Shown: positions 51,544 through 57,927 of the stretch, piece after piece
How the letters are laid out: every line of letters begins with the position of its first letter
How positions within the stretch are numbered: position 1 is the stretch's first letter
Origin: a virus
Length of the DNA stretch: 64,000 nt
Direction: 5' to 3' (one strand)
IMG/VR virus record: IMGVR_UViG_3300032093_000002
Coordinates: 1 to 64,000 of that record
Translations under genes and position numbers: made by a program
The notes under the pieces: model-generated
Told to the model about the DNA's origin: nothing
The model's input: only the letters and a program-made list of their open reading frames with translations
The model's database searches: none

Positions 51544-52236
51544 TTAATTATTTTTAGTCATTGAACCCACAGTTTTAAGTGCATTCCAATGAGAGTCTGA
51601 CTTGGATGAACTCGCCCCAATCACAATCCCTTGTCCTCTCCCGACTGAGTTTCCAACAAAAACATTTGAAGCAGGAACTCCGTTGTTCACAGCATTTCTT
51701 ACATTATTTTTCGTTTCACTTCCAGCAGCATATGGCTCAATGATGAACAAGTTATTTTTATTTTGACCCAAGACATTTGAAATCTCATTAGATTTCCTGC
51801 ATCCCGCACTGAAAAGATAAATCGGGATTCCTGGGTTTTTATTGATAAAATCTATAATTGTAGAGGATGGTGTGTTAAACCTAAAACCTTTAACATTCTT
51901 TTCAGTTCCAATCCCCTGTTTCAATAAACTTACTTGTGAATCTATATTTAAGTCACCAGACCTATTATCTAACCCCCCAACTAAAATTGCATCATACTCA
52001 CCAGATGTTTTTTGTGATGAGGAACCTTTTCTCACAATTTTCAAACCAAACTCTTGTTCCATCGCACCTCTTGTCAAAGGTCCTAACTTACCATCCACTC
52101 CATCTTTGTTTGGACCATACTTACCCAAATCATACCCCTTTTTTATCAGATACTTTTGTATGATTTCAACATTTGGGTCATAGGATATTTGTTCTAATAA
52201 AAAACCCAATTGTGATTCTTTTAAAATAAATCTCAT
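51544..52236 (-). CDS. Peptidoglycan-binding-domain protein between neck genes
   Basis: 230 residues. Residues ~20-66 (IIQKYLIKKGYDLGKYGPNK, then DGVDGKLGPLTRGAMEQEFG) match the PG_binding_1 three-helix fold, with the D-G-x-x-G-x-x-T-x-x-A signature. Residues ~78-230 form an alpha/beta domain (YDAILVGGLDNRSGDLN ... PIYLFSAGCRKSN) that I cannot name; no classic lysozyme or amidase residues are seen. The first residues MRFILKESQL hold an L-x-E-S site like T4 prohead protease targets. It has 2-nt gaps to both neck genes. It may be a virion protein that touches the cell wall. Confidence 0.65.
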   Translation of the reverse strand: MRFILKESQLGFLLEQISYDPNVEIIQKYLIKKGYDLGKYGPNKDGVDGKLGPLTRGAMEQEFGLKIVRKGSSSQKTSGEYDAILVGGLDNRSGDLNIDSQVSLLKQGIGTEKNVKGFRFNTPSSTIIDFINKNPGIPIYLFSAGCRKSNEISNVLGQNKNNLFIIEPYAAGSETKNNVRNAVNNGVPASNVFVGNSVGRGQGIVIGASSSKSDSHWNALKTVGSMTKNN

Positions 52237-52812: not shown

Positions 52813-53208
52813 ATGGAAATTCAAAGAAATACAAAACTACAAGTAAGAAAAAGTTCAATTCACGGTTGGGGGGTTTTCGCATGTGAAGACATAAACGAGG
52901 GTGAGGTTATTGAAGAGTGTCCGATTCTTAGATTACCTGTTCAAAGAGGAGAAACAAACTACACCTTAATTGACTATACATTTGTATTTCCAAAAGGAGA
53001 GAATTGGCAAAACCACGTTATTGCTCTTGGATATGGTTCACTATATAACCATTCCGAAAACTATAACGCAACATGGGAAGACGATTTGGACAAAGACATT
53101 TTAAGATTTAAAGCAACAAAACCAATTTCGAAAGATGAGGAAGTCACAACTTATTATGGTGATGAAAGTTATTGGTCTGACGGTAGAAGTCACATTGAAG
53201 TAAAATGA
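52813..53208 (+). CDS. SET-domain protein, putative lysine methyltransferase
   Basis: 131 residues, a minimal SET domain. SSIHGWGVFACEDINEGEVI gives the N-terminal G-x-G SAM-binding loop, GYGSLYNHSEN carries the NHS motif (H80), and DEEVTTYYGD supplies the E-x-x-x-x-Y-G motif. SET proteins transfer methyl groups from SAM to protein lysines; bacterial and phage targets are mostly unknown. The last four bases overlap the start of the SNF2 helicase gene (ATGA), so both should be made together. It lacks pre- and post-SET cysteine clusters, as in other small bacterial forms. Confidence 0.88.
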   Translation: MEIQRNTKLQVRKSSIHGWGVFACEDINEGEVIEECPILRLPVQRGETNYTLIDYTFVFPKGENWQNHVIALGYGSLYNHSENYNATWEDDLDKDILRFKATKPISKDEEVTTYYGDESYWSDGRSHIEVK

Positions 53209-54965
53209 GCTTATCAGAAATATCACTCGAGTCAAAAGCACTAACACTTCTTGAACAATATGAGGGGTATAACAATTATATCTTGGAACTACAAAGGAAA
53301 TCCCAAGTAAATAAAAAATTCTACCCAACAAGAAGTCAATCAGAATACATAATCAATAACCACGACAAACAACCCAAAGTTGCCAAAAAGTGGGTAATTT
53401 TAGACGCATATTTTGCACAGAAATTAGCTGACGACAAGATGTATACTGAAATCCCACAAAAAGTCTGGGTTGAAAAACTTCTAGCGGAGAAGGACAAAGC
53501 TTATCATATTTGGGGAAAGATTTGGGACTCTGAACAACTACATGATTTTTGGTTACCCAAGGCTTCTATAATAAAAGACAACACCGTTAAAGACGTTGTC
53601 ATCGATTTTGAAAAATATTCAAACAGACCCCCGTTAAACCATCAAAAAGAATCCATTCAGAAACTGGTTGAAAATAAAAAATATATTTTGGCCGATGATA
53701 TGGGTTTGGGTAAAACAACCTCAACTATAATTGCAGCCTTAGAAACAGGGGCTAAAAAGGTTTTAATCATATGTCCCGCAACTTTGAAGATAAACTGGAA
53801 GCGTGAAATTGAAAATTACTCTGACAGGACAATATACATAGCGGAGGGTAAAAACTTTAGCACAGAACACGACTTTGTAATCATAAACTACGACATTCTA
53901 AAAAACTTCCATGACCCTAAAAAGAAAGATGATTCGCAAATTCTTAGAGCCAATTTTGATTTGGTTGTTATTGATGAAGCACACTATATCAAAAATGCTC
54001 AAGCACAAAGAACCAAACTTATAAACGACTTCATAAAAAAAATTGACAGACTTTGGTTATTAACAGGAACACCGATGACATCAAGACCAATTGATTATTA
54101 TAATTTATTGAGTCTCGTAGATTCCCCTGTTGCCAAGAACTGGATGGCCTACGTCATAAGATATTGCAGTGGATATCAATTCAAGGTCGGAGCAAGGAAA
54201 GTATGGAACGTAATGGGTGCGTCTAATTTAGATGAACTAAGGGATAGAACCTCGAATACAATCCTAAGGAGATTGAAAGAAGACGTTTTGGATTTACCTG
54301 AAAAAATTATCACACCTGTTTATCTCAGACTCAAATCAAAGGACTATGAAGAACTCATGGGGGAATATTATAATTGGTATGATAAAAACCCCGACGAGTC
54401 AAAATCGTTAACAGTTCAATTTTCAAAACTTACAAAAGTTAGACAAGTTATTGCCAACGAGAAAATATCTCAAACAATAGAACTTGCCGAAAACATATTA
54501 GAGCAGGACAAAAAAGTTATCATATTTTGTAACTTCACAGATTCACTAAATCAAATTGTTCAACATTTTGGAAAAACTGCCGTCAAAGTTGATGGGTCAA
54601 TGACAAAACAAGATAGACAATTTAGTGTTGACCAATTTCAAGAAAATGATAAAATAAAAGTTTTTGTCGGTAACATAAAGGCTGCGGGTGTTGGACTTAC
54701 TTTGACTTCCGCAGAAGCGGTTATTATGAACGACTTATCATTCCTACCATCGGACCACTCTCAGGCTGAAGATAGGGCATACAGATTTGGACAAAAAAAT
54801 AATGTGTTAGTCTATTATCCAATATTTGAAAACACAATCGAAGGCGCGATATATGACATACTTAATAATAAGAAGCAAGTCATCGCGACCGTTATGGGTG
54901 ACAATCAAAACATCGGTGACACTGCCGAAGAAATTCTGAAAAGAATAAACGAATTACGCCCTTAA
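53205..54965 (+). CDS. SNF2-family DEAH helicase/translocase
   Basis: 586 residues. Motif I ADDMGLGKTT (163-172), motif II DEAH (257-260), motif III LLTGTPM (285-291) and motif VI near 518-530 (QAEDRAYRFGQ) show a complete two-domain SNF2 motor. It most resembles small SMARCAL1/HARP-like annealing motors; in T4-like phages UvsW plays the corresponding recombination-repair role. The ~145-residue N-terminal region is unassigned. Coupled to the SET gene by ATGA. Possibly remodels forks or protein-DNA complexes during replication. Confidence 0.88.
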   Translation: MSLSEISLESKALTLLEQYEGYNNYILELQRKSQVNKKFYPTRSQSEYIINNHDKQPKVAKKWVILDAYFAQKLADDKMYTEIPQKVWVEKLLAEKDKAYHIWGKIWDSEQLHDFWLPKASIIKDNTVKDVVIDFEKYSNRPPLNHQKESIQKLVENKKYILADDMGLGKTTSTIIAALETGAKKVLIICPATLKINWKREIENYSDRTIYIAEGKNFSTEHDFVIINYDILKNFHDPKKKDDSQILRANFDLVVIDEAHYIKNAQAQRTKLINDFIKKIDRLWLLTGTPMTSRPIDYYNLLSLVDSPVAKNWMAYVIRYCSGYQFKVGARKVWNVMGASNLDELRDRTSNTILRRLKEDVLDLPEKIITPVYLRLKSKDYEELMGEYYNWYDKNPDESKSLTVQFSKLTKVRQVIANEKISQTIELAENILEQDKKVIIFCNFTDSLNQIVQHFGKTAVKVDGSMTKQDRQFSVDQFQENDKIKVFVGNIKAAGVGLTLTSAEAVIMNDLSFLPSDHSQAEDRAYRFGQKNNVLVYYPIFENTIEGAIYDILNNKKQVIATVMGDNQNIGDTAEEILKRINELRP

Positions 54966-55242: not shown

Positions 55243-56781
55243 ATGAAAAAAATAGAAGAAAGAATTCAACAAATTGAAAAACAAATTACCGAAAACCATA
55301 TCGAAACAGAAAAACAATTGTTGATTACAGAAATGAAAAAAATTGGAATAGAAAAACTACCCTATTCTTATTCAGCCCTCAAAGGATTCATCGACGCAGA
55401 AACGATGAATTTCCACTACAACAAACACTATAAGGGATATGTAGATAAATTAAATGCCGCCCTGTCAAAGAAAAAACATGGAGATTTAGACTTAGAAAAA
55501 ATTGTCAAAAACATTAGTCGATACGACCAAGTAGTAAGGAACAACGCTGGAGGAGCATTCAATCACGCACTTTTTTGGAATATGTTGTCTCCAACACCAA
55601 AAAAATTAACAGGGGAATTGTATAAAAAAATTACCAAAGAATACGGTAGTTTCAATCTATTCAAAAAGAAATTTGAAACTGTTGCAAAGGATAGATTTGG
55701 CTCAGGTTGGGTATGGTTAATTTTAACCTCAAAAAATACTTTGAAAATAATGTCGACACCAAATCAAGACAATCCACTTATGAATGTTATCGAAGGTGGA
55801 GGTTTCCCTCTATTAGGTTTGGACCTTTGGGAACACGCCTACTATTTGAAATACAGAAATAAGAGAGACGAATACATTTCAAATTTTTGGAAGGTGGTCA
55901 ATTGGGATTTTGTTCAGAAACTTTATGAAATGAAAGTTGAAACAAAACTACTAGAGTCGAACAAATTTCAAGGAATAATTACTGAATCAAAAGAACCACA
56001 ATTCTGTAATCCAAAAGAAGTATTGTTCTATAGAGACTTGATTAATAATTACGCAATCAAAAAAAGATATCAGGAGGGAGTATCCTACGTTCTAAAAAAA
56101 GTATTTTCACATTTTTGGGTTGAGGGTAATACTGAAGAGATGTCAGGATTTTATGGTGTAGAATCACCCGAGGGTAGGTCTATACTCAATAACCTTAATA
56201 CAAATTTCAATACATTTTGTTTATTGGTAAAAGCAGTAAACAAACAGATTGAATTAATTGGAAGGTCAGAAAAGAAGTTTGATTTTTCAAAAAAAGAAAA
56301 AAGAACTCTAAAGGAAACAACTAGATTTATTTCAGCATTGGACCACTTCAGAAACGAAATCTTTACAGAGAATAACGAAGACTTTATCAATATAATCAAA
56401 GTCCTTAAAAAACTTTGGGATAGGGGTCAAAAGTCTGAAGACAACGCAATTAAAAAAATAGAAGACTATTTTGATGGTAATGCTAAAATTGAAAAGATTG
56501 GTTCACATGGTGGAAAACAAGACGCCTTCAAAGGTATTGATGTAAATGTGATTTTAGATGGAAAAAAGTTTTCTGCACAGGTTAAACCATTCTCTAATGT
56601 TTCAATAATCGAGGACAGAGTTAAACTTTTGGATACAGGAAATGTTAAGCATTACGAAGTCGATTGGTATATTTTTATTAATCCTAAAACAAATAAGATA
56701 CTTATATTCAAAAACGACCCTATAAGTGATAAAAACCAATATGTCTTCAACGTTAGTTCACTACTACACGAAATAGAATAA
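55243..56781 (+). CDS. Superoxide dismutase (Mn/Fe type) fused to a PD-(D/E)XK nuclease-like domain
   Basis: 512 residues. Residues ~35-232 are a full Mn/Fe superoxide dismutase: ligands H58 (NFHYNKHY), H108 (GGAFNHALFWN), D194 and H198 (LDLWEHAYY), with GSGWVWL and the N-P-N-Q-D turn. Gly before H108 and Gln175 in NQD suit the Mn or cambialistic type. Residues ~250-512 are a different domain: helices, then E407, G-I-D433, and Q446-V-K448 spaced like the E...D...(E/Q)-x-K site of restriction-type nucleases. The junction IITE248-S249 resembles a T4 prohead protease site. Start preceded by a coiled-coil-like 30-residue helix. A phage SOD fused this way is new to me; nuclease activity is inferred. 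Confidence 0.8.
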   Translation: MKKIEERIQQIEKQITENHIETEKQLLITEMKKIGIEKLPYSYSALKGFIDAETMNFHYNKHYKGYVDKLNAALSKKKHGDLDLEKIVKNISRYDQVVRNNAGGAFNHALFWNMLSPTPKKLTGELYKKITKEYGSFNLFKKKFETVAKDRFGSGWVWLILTSKNTLKIMSTPNQDNPLMNVIEGGGFPLLGLDLWEHAYYLKYRNKRDEYISNFWKVVNWDFVQKLYEMKVETKLLESNKFQGIITESKEPQFCNPKEVLFYRDLINNYAIKKRYQEGVSYVLKKVFSHFWVEGNTEEMSGFYGVESPEGRSILNNLNTNFNTFCLLVKAVNKQIELIGRSEKKFDFSKKEKRTLKETTRFISALDHFRNEIFTENNEDFINIIKVLKKLWDRGQKSEDNAIKKIEDYFDGNAKIEKIGSHGGKQDAFKGIDVNVILDGKKFSAQVKPFSNVSIIEDRVKLLDTGNVKHYEVDWYIFINPKTNKILIFKNDPISDKNQYVFNVSSLLHEIE

Positions 56782-56799: not shown

Positions 56800-57927
56800 A
56801 TGGCAGCACTACCAGAACCAGAAAGAAGTAAAATTTATACAAGAGTCAAACACTTGTTGGGAGCACCCTTAAGAAGTGTAGAATTAGAAGACGAAATGAT
56901 GGACTCGCTAATGGAATTATCTATTGGTGATTATGAAGAATATATTCTACAATGGCTAATCGATTCACAATGGGTTAACTTAGTAAACCTCAATATGAAT
57001 GAAAAGTCTGTTGCCAGAGCTTTGGTTACAAGGACAATGGACTTCGAACAACAATTTGCATATTCGTATTCTAAGATTGTTGGACTTCAGACCGTAGGAC
57101 CATGGGTCTTGAAGAAAGATTATTTCATAATTGAAAAGAATGTTCAGACATACGAAATACCAGCCAACAGAGAAGTCAATGAACTTCTTTGGTTTAGTAA
57201 TCAGGCTTGGACAGCATTCGGACTTGGAGGTCTTGGTGGATTTGGATTCGGTGGTATAGGTTTGGGTGCCAATGAAGCAGGATACGCTCAGATGGGATAC
57301 CAAGGTTCTTATTTTATGATGTCTGGTTTTGATTACCTCATCAGAATGCAAGAAGCAAATATCTTGAATAGAATTCTCGGTGGTTCTATGACATATAGGA
57401 TTACCGCATTACCTGATGGTAAAAAGTTGATACACTTGATGAATACCCCTGGTGGTAAATTTAACTGGGCTAATTTCAACATGTATGCTGGTAAAGCGGT
57501 TTGGTATTGGTATTATGATGTAACACCAGACAGTAGAGCTGATTGTCTTAAAAACAATCCTGACATTATCAAACTACCGACTGACGTTCCTCTTGAATCC
57601 TTGAGTTGGGAAGATATCAATGTTCCTGGACAACAATGGATAAGAAGATGGTTTACAGCATATTGTAAAGAAACCTTAGCAAGAGTGAGAGGTAAATACA
57701 GTGGGAATCTTAAGACACCTGATTCTGAAATTACAATGGATTACACCAGTCTTTTAACTGAAGCCAAGGATGAAAAATCTAAACTGATGGAAGAATTGAC
57801 GGGCGCTGAAGGATGGCTTACAAGACTAAGACCTGAAAAGGTTATGGAAAGAGAAGCACAAATTGCTGAAAATTTAAATAAACAAATGAAATTCAGAGCA
57901 ATGCCTCGTCAAATCTACGTAATCTAA
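56800..57927 (+). CDS. Probable neck/head completion protein, gp13-like
   Basis: 375 residues (T4 gp13 is 309). The opening IYTRVKHLLGAPLRSVELED, then SIGDYEEYILQWLIDSQW, WVLKKDYFIIEKNVQTYEIP and NREVNELLWF, and the C-terminal AYCKETLARVRGKYSGNLKT, recur in neck proteins of T4-like phages as I remember them. A Gly-rich patch GLGGLGGFGFGGIGLG (~137-152) may be a flexible loop. Followed by a 111-aa gene at 1 nt. Probably closes the head for tail joining. It is on the opposite strand from the gp14/gp15-like genes. Confidence 0.55.
   Translation: MAALPEPERSKIYTRVKHLLGAPLRSVELEDEMMDSLMELSIGDYEEYILQWLIDSQWVNLVNLNMNEKSVARALVTRTMDFEQQFAYSYSKIVGLQTVGPWVLKKDYFIIEKNVQTYEIPANREVNELLWFSNQAWTAFGLGGLGGFGFGGIGLGANEAGYAQMGYQGSYFMMSGFDYLIRMQEANILNRILGGSMTYRITALPDGKKLIHLMNTPGGKFNWANFNMYAGKAVWYWYYDVTPDSRADCLKNNPDIIKLPTDVPLESLSWEDINVPGQQWIRRWFTAYCKETLARVRGKYSGNLKTPDSEITMDYTSLLTEAKDEKSKLMEELTGAEGWLTRLRPEKVMEREAQIAENLNKQMKFRAMPRQIYVI

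Follow-up and report, generated by a model that had tools for sequence, protein, structure and literature searches.

Why should a phage gene join a superoxide dismutase (SOD) to what looks like a nuclease? The gene in question lies in the window analysed here, the initial 64 kb of a 317,210-base phage record (IMG/VR IMGVR_UViG_3300032093_000002; G000). It is an open reading frame (ORF) on the plus strand at positions 55243..56781, with an ATG start and 512 codons plus a stop, and is recognised by Pfam and by full-length IMG/VR homologues. A preliminary description had correctly placed this frame, four SOD metal ligands (H58, H108, D194 and H198) and a set of nuclease-like residues (E407, D433, Q446 and K448). 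With modest confidence, we explain the product as cargo that is packaged in the head and split by a protease into SOD and nuclease, as happens to the T4 internal proteins. The observations behind this explanation are the fusion itself, the conservation of both predicted active sites, (I/L)xE/S sites between the domains (the slash marks the candidate cut), a phage-encoded protease and a capsid protein that bears a matching site.

A superoxide dismutase joined to a nuclease-like domain

A first scan of IMG/VR recovered at least 595 relatives, many perhaps through the SOD part only; the 80 that were kept are all full length. Residue conservation was counted in 72 distinct full-length relatives. 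In a separate IMG/VR scan, by C-terminal motif and pooled with the earlier loci (overlaps counted), 213 ORFs carried the C-terminal domain and 211 were fused to SOD. The other two look like fragments: one is truncated and the other is divided between frames. When IMG/VR was scanned by pattern and by alignment, no complete C-terminal copy lacking SOD turned up among the ORFs checked. The fusion is universal in this lineage. Neither the fusion nor its motifs can be put down to chance, because the SOD ligands and D433, Q446 and K448 are kept in 72/72 relatives.

The Fe/Mn SOD domain covers residues 36-228 (55348..55926, plus strand), as defined by Pfam, conservation and matches to solved structures. 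Over residues 36-226, PF02777 matches with E=1.4e-39 and PF00081 with E=1e-22. The Sod_Fe_N and Sod_Fe_C domains are both present, with the His-His-Asp-His metal ligands of an Fe/Mn SOD. The ligand codons, all on the plus strand, are at 55414-55416 (H58), 55564-55566 (H108), 55822-55824 (D194) and 55834-55836 (H198). The four ligands had been described as intact; they are also invariant in the relatives, where loss was looked for and never seen. The second shell is invariant too (H62, Y66, W112, W156, W158, Q175, W196, E197, Y200 and Y201; 72/72). We take H62, Y66, W112, Q175 and E197 to correspond to His30, Tyr34, Trp, Gln and Glu170 in E. coli numbering, and G104 with Q175 to be the Mn-type Gly/Gln pair of SOD families. 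The closest solved chains are the Mn SODs 6gsc and 5a9g (E about 1e-60). We regard it as virtually certain that this domain is a superoxide dismutase, and its residues indicate that it is apparently catalytic. Among chromosomal SODs, most of the nearest relatives (46-58% identity) belong to Bacteroidota, which makes that group the likely source of the domain. The carriers of the fusion are a large freshwater phage lineage whose host is probably also Bacteroidota. Ligands, second shell and Gly/Gln pair are shared with bacterial Mn SODs of the SodA type, whereas the phage protein adds a 35-residue N-terminal extension, a cut-site-like linker and a 260-residue C-terminal domain.

The C-terminal part, residues 250-512 (55990..56778, plus strand), begins with a helical region and is predicted to be a nuclease-like domain of the PD-(D/Q)XK type, as indicated by AlphaFold2 (AF2), Foldseek and conservation. 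The AF2 model of this domain alone has a predicted local distance difference test (pLDDT) of 86 and a predicted template modelling score (pTM) of 0.72. E399 (codon 56437-56439, plus strand, as for those that follow) sits on a long helix (residues 379-409) that leads into a sheet. D433 (56539-56541) opens one strand, and Q446 (56578-56580) and K448 (56584-56586) lie in the next, so that D433 and Q446-x-K448 occupy adjacent strands, as in a PD-(D/E)XK active site. The helix expected between strands 3 and 4 of that fold is absent from the model. Foldseek against the PDB placed I-Ssp6803I first (E 5e-3, prob 1.0), then NhoI, SPARDA DREN and Hjc (prob 0.94, E 0.13), with RecU lower. All of these are nucleases of the PD-(D/E)XK type. 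E399, D427, D433, Q446 and K448 are invariant (72/72). The preliminary description had proposed E407, D433 and Q446-x-K448 as the nuclease residues. The last three hold, while E407 is kept in 61/72 relatives and is probably the wrong glutamate of a helix that also carries E399. The predicted fold agrees with the one that it had suggested, in a Q-x-K variant.

Q-x-K can be a working active-site arrangement, since the catalytic residues of DREN are D41, Q60 and K62, of which D and Q bind Mg (PMC12205087). DREN, in turn, resembles I-Ssp6803I (PMC12205087). With these Q-x-K nucleases (SPARDA DREN, DUF4365; structural relative I-Ssp6803I), the phage domain shares a predicted helix-sheet core and invariant E, D and Q-x-K. 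Unlike them, it has an extra N-terminal helical region, and it has no significant sequence match to them. Very probably, residues 250-512 adopt a nuclease fold, as judged from the model. No Pfam, PADLOC or PDB profile matches this region, and by sequence it falls into no curated nuclease family. The unannotated family phrog_5018 matches weakly in 38/50 members, across the D..QxK region in the members inspected. The domain alone matched nothing in annotated phages, plasmids or GTDB genomes. Membership of a defence system was considered and rejected, there being no PADLOC match.

The linker and the prohead protease

Residues 229-253 (55927..56001, plus strand) form a variable linker that contains two conserved prohead-protease-like sites. 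Site 1 is L236-L237-E238/S239 (55948..55959, plus strand), with L and E each in 72/72 relatives and S in 67/72. Site 2 is I246-T247-E248/S249 (55978..55989, plus strand), with I or L in 71/72, E in 69/72 and S in 59/72. Site 1 lies 10 residues upstream of site 2 and is the better conserved. Only one site, I-x-E-S at 245-249, had been noticed before; its (I/L)-x-E pattern is conserved in the relatives, the exact string is that of site 2, and site 1 had been overlooked. Mean entropy over the linker as a whole is 1.12 bits, compared with 0.32 for the SOD domain. Within it, both sites show little or no variation at P3 and P1 but six different residues at P2, and the stretch between the sites is mostly unconstrained. 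The background frequency of (I/L)xE is about 11 per 1000 residues, and two such strings in one 25-residue linker are unremarkable alone. It is their conservation across relatives, not their mere presence, that gives them weight. Fixed P3 and P1 with a free P2 is the pattern expected for recognition by a protease of the T4 gp21 type.

The likeness of the linker to T4 prohead protease sites, pointed out previously, has a counterpart in the genome. Profile matches show that the record encodes both a T4-type capsid protein and an S77 prohead protease of the gp21 type (record positions 103837-104268, E 1.5e-22). The protease keeps the ELNHP and SSRG blocks common to T4 gp21. In the capsid protein, HLINE/A aligns with FLTE/A of T4 gp23, the position at which gp23 is cut. 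The capsid protein is nearest to those of an unannotated 484-kb uncultured phage, Microcystis phage Mel-JY01 and Flavobacterium phage immuto. Conserved (I/L)-x-E sites, an S77 protease and a gp23-type capsid protein in the same genome are what a processed internal head protein should show. A scaffold-like protein (L086:9471-11048, minus strand), encoded upstream of the capsid gene, contains an extended acidic repeat and, at its C-terminal end, an NLIE/SKTYENP site.

In T4, the capsid-targeting sequence (CTS) is processed at residues 8 and 10 (P3 and P1), and Asp at position 10 (P1) inhibits processing (PMC9026906). Foreign proteins enter T4 heads when fused to the CTS (PMC9958956). The present system resembles that of the T4 internal proteins and Alt, which carry a gp21-processed CTS: it too has (I/L)-x-E sites, an S77 protease gene, short peptides common to unrelated proteins and a gp23-type capsid protein with a site in the same place. 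It differs in that an SOD and a nuclease-like domain share one chain, the sites are internal and packaging is our proposal. Cleavage of the chain at the linker is fairly probable on the evidence of these motifs.

Could the fusion instead stay uncut in the infected cell, with the SOD shielding the nuclease or its DNA from superoxide late in infection and the LxE strings serving folding or partner binding? Such a role would suit a fusion that is universal in the lineage with both active sites intact, and a gene that has a helicase among its neighbours. The full-length AF2 model also places a helix at residues 240-248, with moderate confidence. The P3/P1 pattern at both sites is instead that of protease recognition, and a protease and a capsid site that fit it are both encoded by the phage. 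We consider an uncut fusion unlikely.

Leader peptides and proposed packaging in the head

Short amphipathic peptides, for example MSKIVRLTESDLIRLVKRVLKE, MKYLITESQYNFLLEQ and MNLNENISRVKELMG, stand at the start of many other gene products of the phage. They are concentrated at about 180-238 kb of the record (loci L093-L096). The types LTESDLxRLVxxVxxEQ, MKYIITESQLxxLxxEQ and MNLNENISRVKELMG together head about 36 otherwise unrelated genes. No homology was detectable among the bodies of the 36 genes selected by leader, which gives the leader a modular character. One leader, MRFILKES QLGFLLEQ, heads a PG_binding_1-like protein in the window (51544..52236, minus strand) and was compared with the linker. 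The linker consensus, TKLLESxxLxKLITES, is similar to these N-terminal leaders.

In the ORFs of the phage, [LI]xE[SAQN] is enriched 4.3-fold, and [LI]xE[SQ] 6.3-fold, in the first 30 residues relative to those beyond residue 60. The control motifs [LI]xD[SAQN] and [LI]xK[SAQN] gave 0.6-fold and 1.2-fold in the first 30 residues. Scanning a 50-kb slice of T4 for leaders recovered the gp21 substrates gp22, gp24, gp68 and IPI, among genes that are not substrates. The LTESDL-type leader was found again in the 321- and 326-kb relatives, and control hits were not. Short-peptide tblastn with the leader gave no matches, and the string LTESDL was not found in the open-licence literature. The leaders are candidates for capsid-targeting sequences that are processed by the prohead protease, and the linker would be an internal targeting and cutting element of the same kind. 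Flavobacterium phage immuto (MW353175; L385, L384, L386) has different repeated (I/L)xE leaders, MENFDLKKFLVENKLTTNSKILKEN on three genes and MKKQILSEQFKRMQxLAGIITES on two.

From these data we infer the following course of events. An Mn-type SOD and a PD-(D/Q)XK-type nuclease would be made as a single chain, from a gene beside a neck gene, and the chain would enter the prohead as the head assembles. Packaging of the chain in the head is, in our judgement, probable. The S77 protease would then cleave on the C-terminal side of E238 and E248; it might also act close to the N-terminus, at E17 or E30. This would remove a linker peptide of about 10 residues and leave SOD and nuclease separate in the capsid. 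Both enzymes would be injected with the DNA, where the SOD may detoxify superoxide and the nuclease may cut host or competing nucleic acid. This purpose, put forward as an idea in the preliminary description too, is the weakest step of the proposal. Only tentatively do we put forward the fullest version: an antioxidant enzyme and a nuclease would travel as one polyprotein cargo, which is split in the capsid at an internal site, present twice and modelled on the capsid-targeting leader of the phage itself, and the same phage would direct dozens of unrelated proteins to its head by means of such leaders.

Several observations weigh against the packaged-cargo explanation. The conserved linker sites are internal, whereas known targeting leaders are mostly N-terminal, and two of the 72 relatives lack a strict second site (V-I-E). 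The phage-specific, helical N-terminal extension (residues 1-35; 55243..55347, plus strand) has IxE sites, with (I/L)xE at 15-17 and 28-30, and E30 and M31 are kept in 72/72; it resembles the leaders only partly, with M at P1', and the leader-like motif is in the linker. The spaced control [LI]..E[SAQN] is enriched 2.4-fold in the phage, which makes part of the N-terminal enrichment a general bias; in the T4 slice, enrichment is about 2.5-fold for this control and for the true motif alike. The Foldseek matches in the PDB all miss 1e-3 and cover only about half of the C-terminal domain. The full-length AF2 model is poor, notably over the SOD part, so that the two domains cannot be placed relative to each other. 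Finally, synteny with a neck gene is no proof of location in the virion.

Phage proteins packed in the head are known, and SOD is carried in the virions of giant viruses (PMC9405923). A conserved SOD-nuclease pair built for maturation cleavage is, as far as we found, undescribed. If the proposal is correct, phages would inject a defence against oxidative stress, and the protein would be a natural counterpart of engineered T4 fusion cargo. The leader peptides would then allow sequence-based prediction of capsid-borne proteins among the hundreds of unknowns of jumbo phages.

Gene neighbourhood and related proteins

The gene order helicase, SOD-nuclease, gp13-like neck protein and small gene is kept in the inspected relatives with enough flank. 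In the window, the SNF2-type helicase lies upstream (53205..54965, plus strand). The next gene downstream, after 18 nucleotides, encodes the T4 gp13-like neck protein (head-tail adaptor Ad2; 56800..57927, plus strand); the gap is about 20 nucleotides in the relatives. This setting raises the question of whether the C-terminal domain serves as a nuclease with a structural role in head or neck, for instance as a functional substitute for T4 gp4 in head closure, with the SOD as passenger or scaffold. The fusion adjoins the neck gene in all inspected relatives with flank, T4 gp4 is a TnsA-like endonuclease, and phrog_218 (gp4), which T4 itself matches, finds no match in this lineage, nor anywhere in the genome of the record. 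In immuto, however, both an SOD and a detectable gp4 are missing, so gp4 loss and the fusion do not go together. Were the SOD a passenger, invariance of all its catalytic residues across 72 relatives would be surprising, and the C-terminal domain has no TnsA sequence match. We regard this role as improbable. It is just as improbable that the domain has the PD-(D/E)XK fold but does no more than bind DNA or assist assembly, the SOD being the useful activity. The stronger conservation of the SOD (0.32 bits mean entropy, against 0.95 in the C-terminal domain) and the partial Foldseek match might suggest this, but E399, D433, Q446 and K448 stay invariant within a domain that otherwise varies.

The packaged-cargo explanation concerns a protein that has almost certainly been sequenced before, because the C-terminal domain has a match (E 3e-17, 30% identity, TMq 0.69) in A0A6J5L953 (BFVD/UniProt), a 501-residue protein of an uncultured Caudovirales phage that is named 'superoxide dismutase'. 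Compared by structure match and name, it is similar in size and more divergent, and is almost certainly the same fusion under the SOD label alone. The preliminary description knew of no described SOD-nuclease fusion. We likewise found no paper discussing one in the open-licence literature, which leaves out most subscription journals, but a deposited example thus exists. Stand-alone phage SODs (the PA5oct group and Vibrio phage 2.275.O) are also phage-borne Fe/Mn SODs; they match the SOD part alone, at 27-28% identity. Stand-alone SODs in Staphylococcus, Enterococcus, Salmonella and Listeria phage records are 43-48% identical, several on fragments of 1.5-9 kb; they are probably host DNA and were not used. 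Each of three records (317, 321 and 326 kb) has one SOD only.

In A0A8D9CCA0 (BFVD), a 1113-residue protein of an uncultured marine phage, one domain matches the C-terminal part of the fusion (E 4e-14), which may therefore have other partner proteins. Scans for sigma-70 promoters and terminators flanking the fusion gene gave chance-level hits only. Adjoining the helicase, at window positions 52813-53208, is a SET-domain protein (PF00856, E 5e-13) with a lysine-methyltransferase-like fold.
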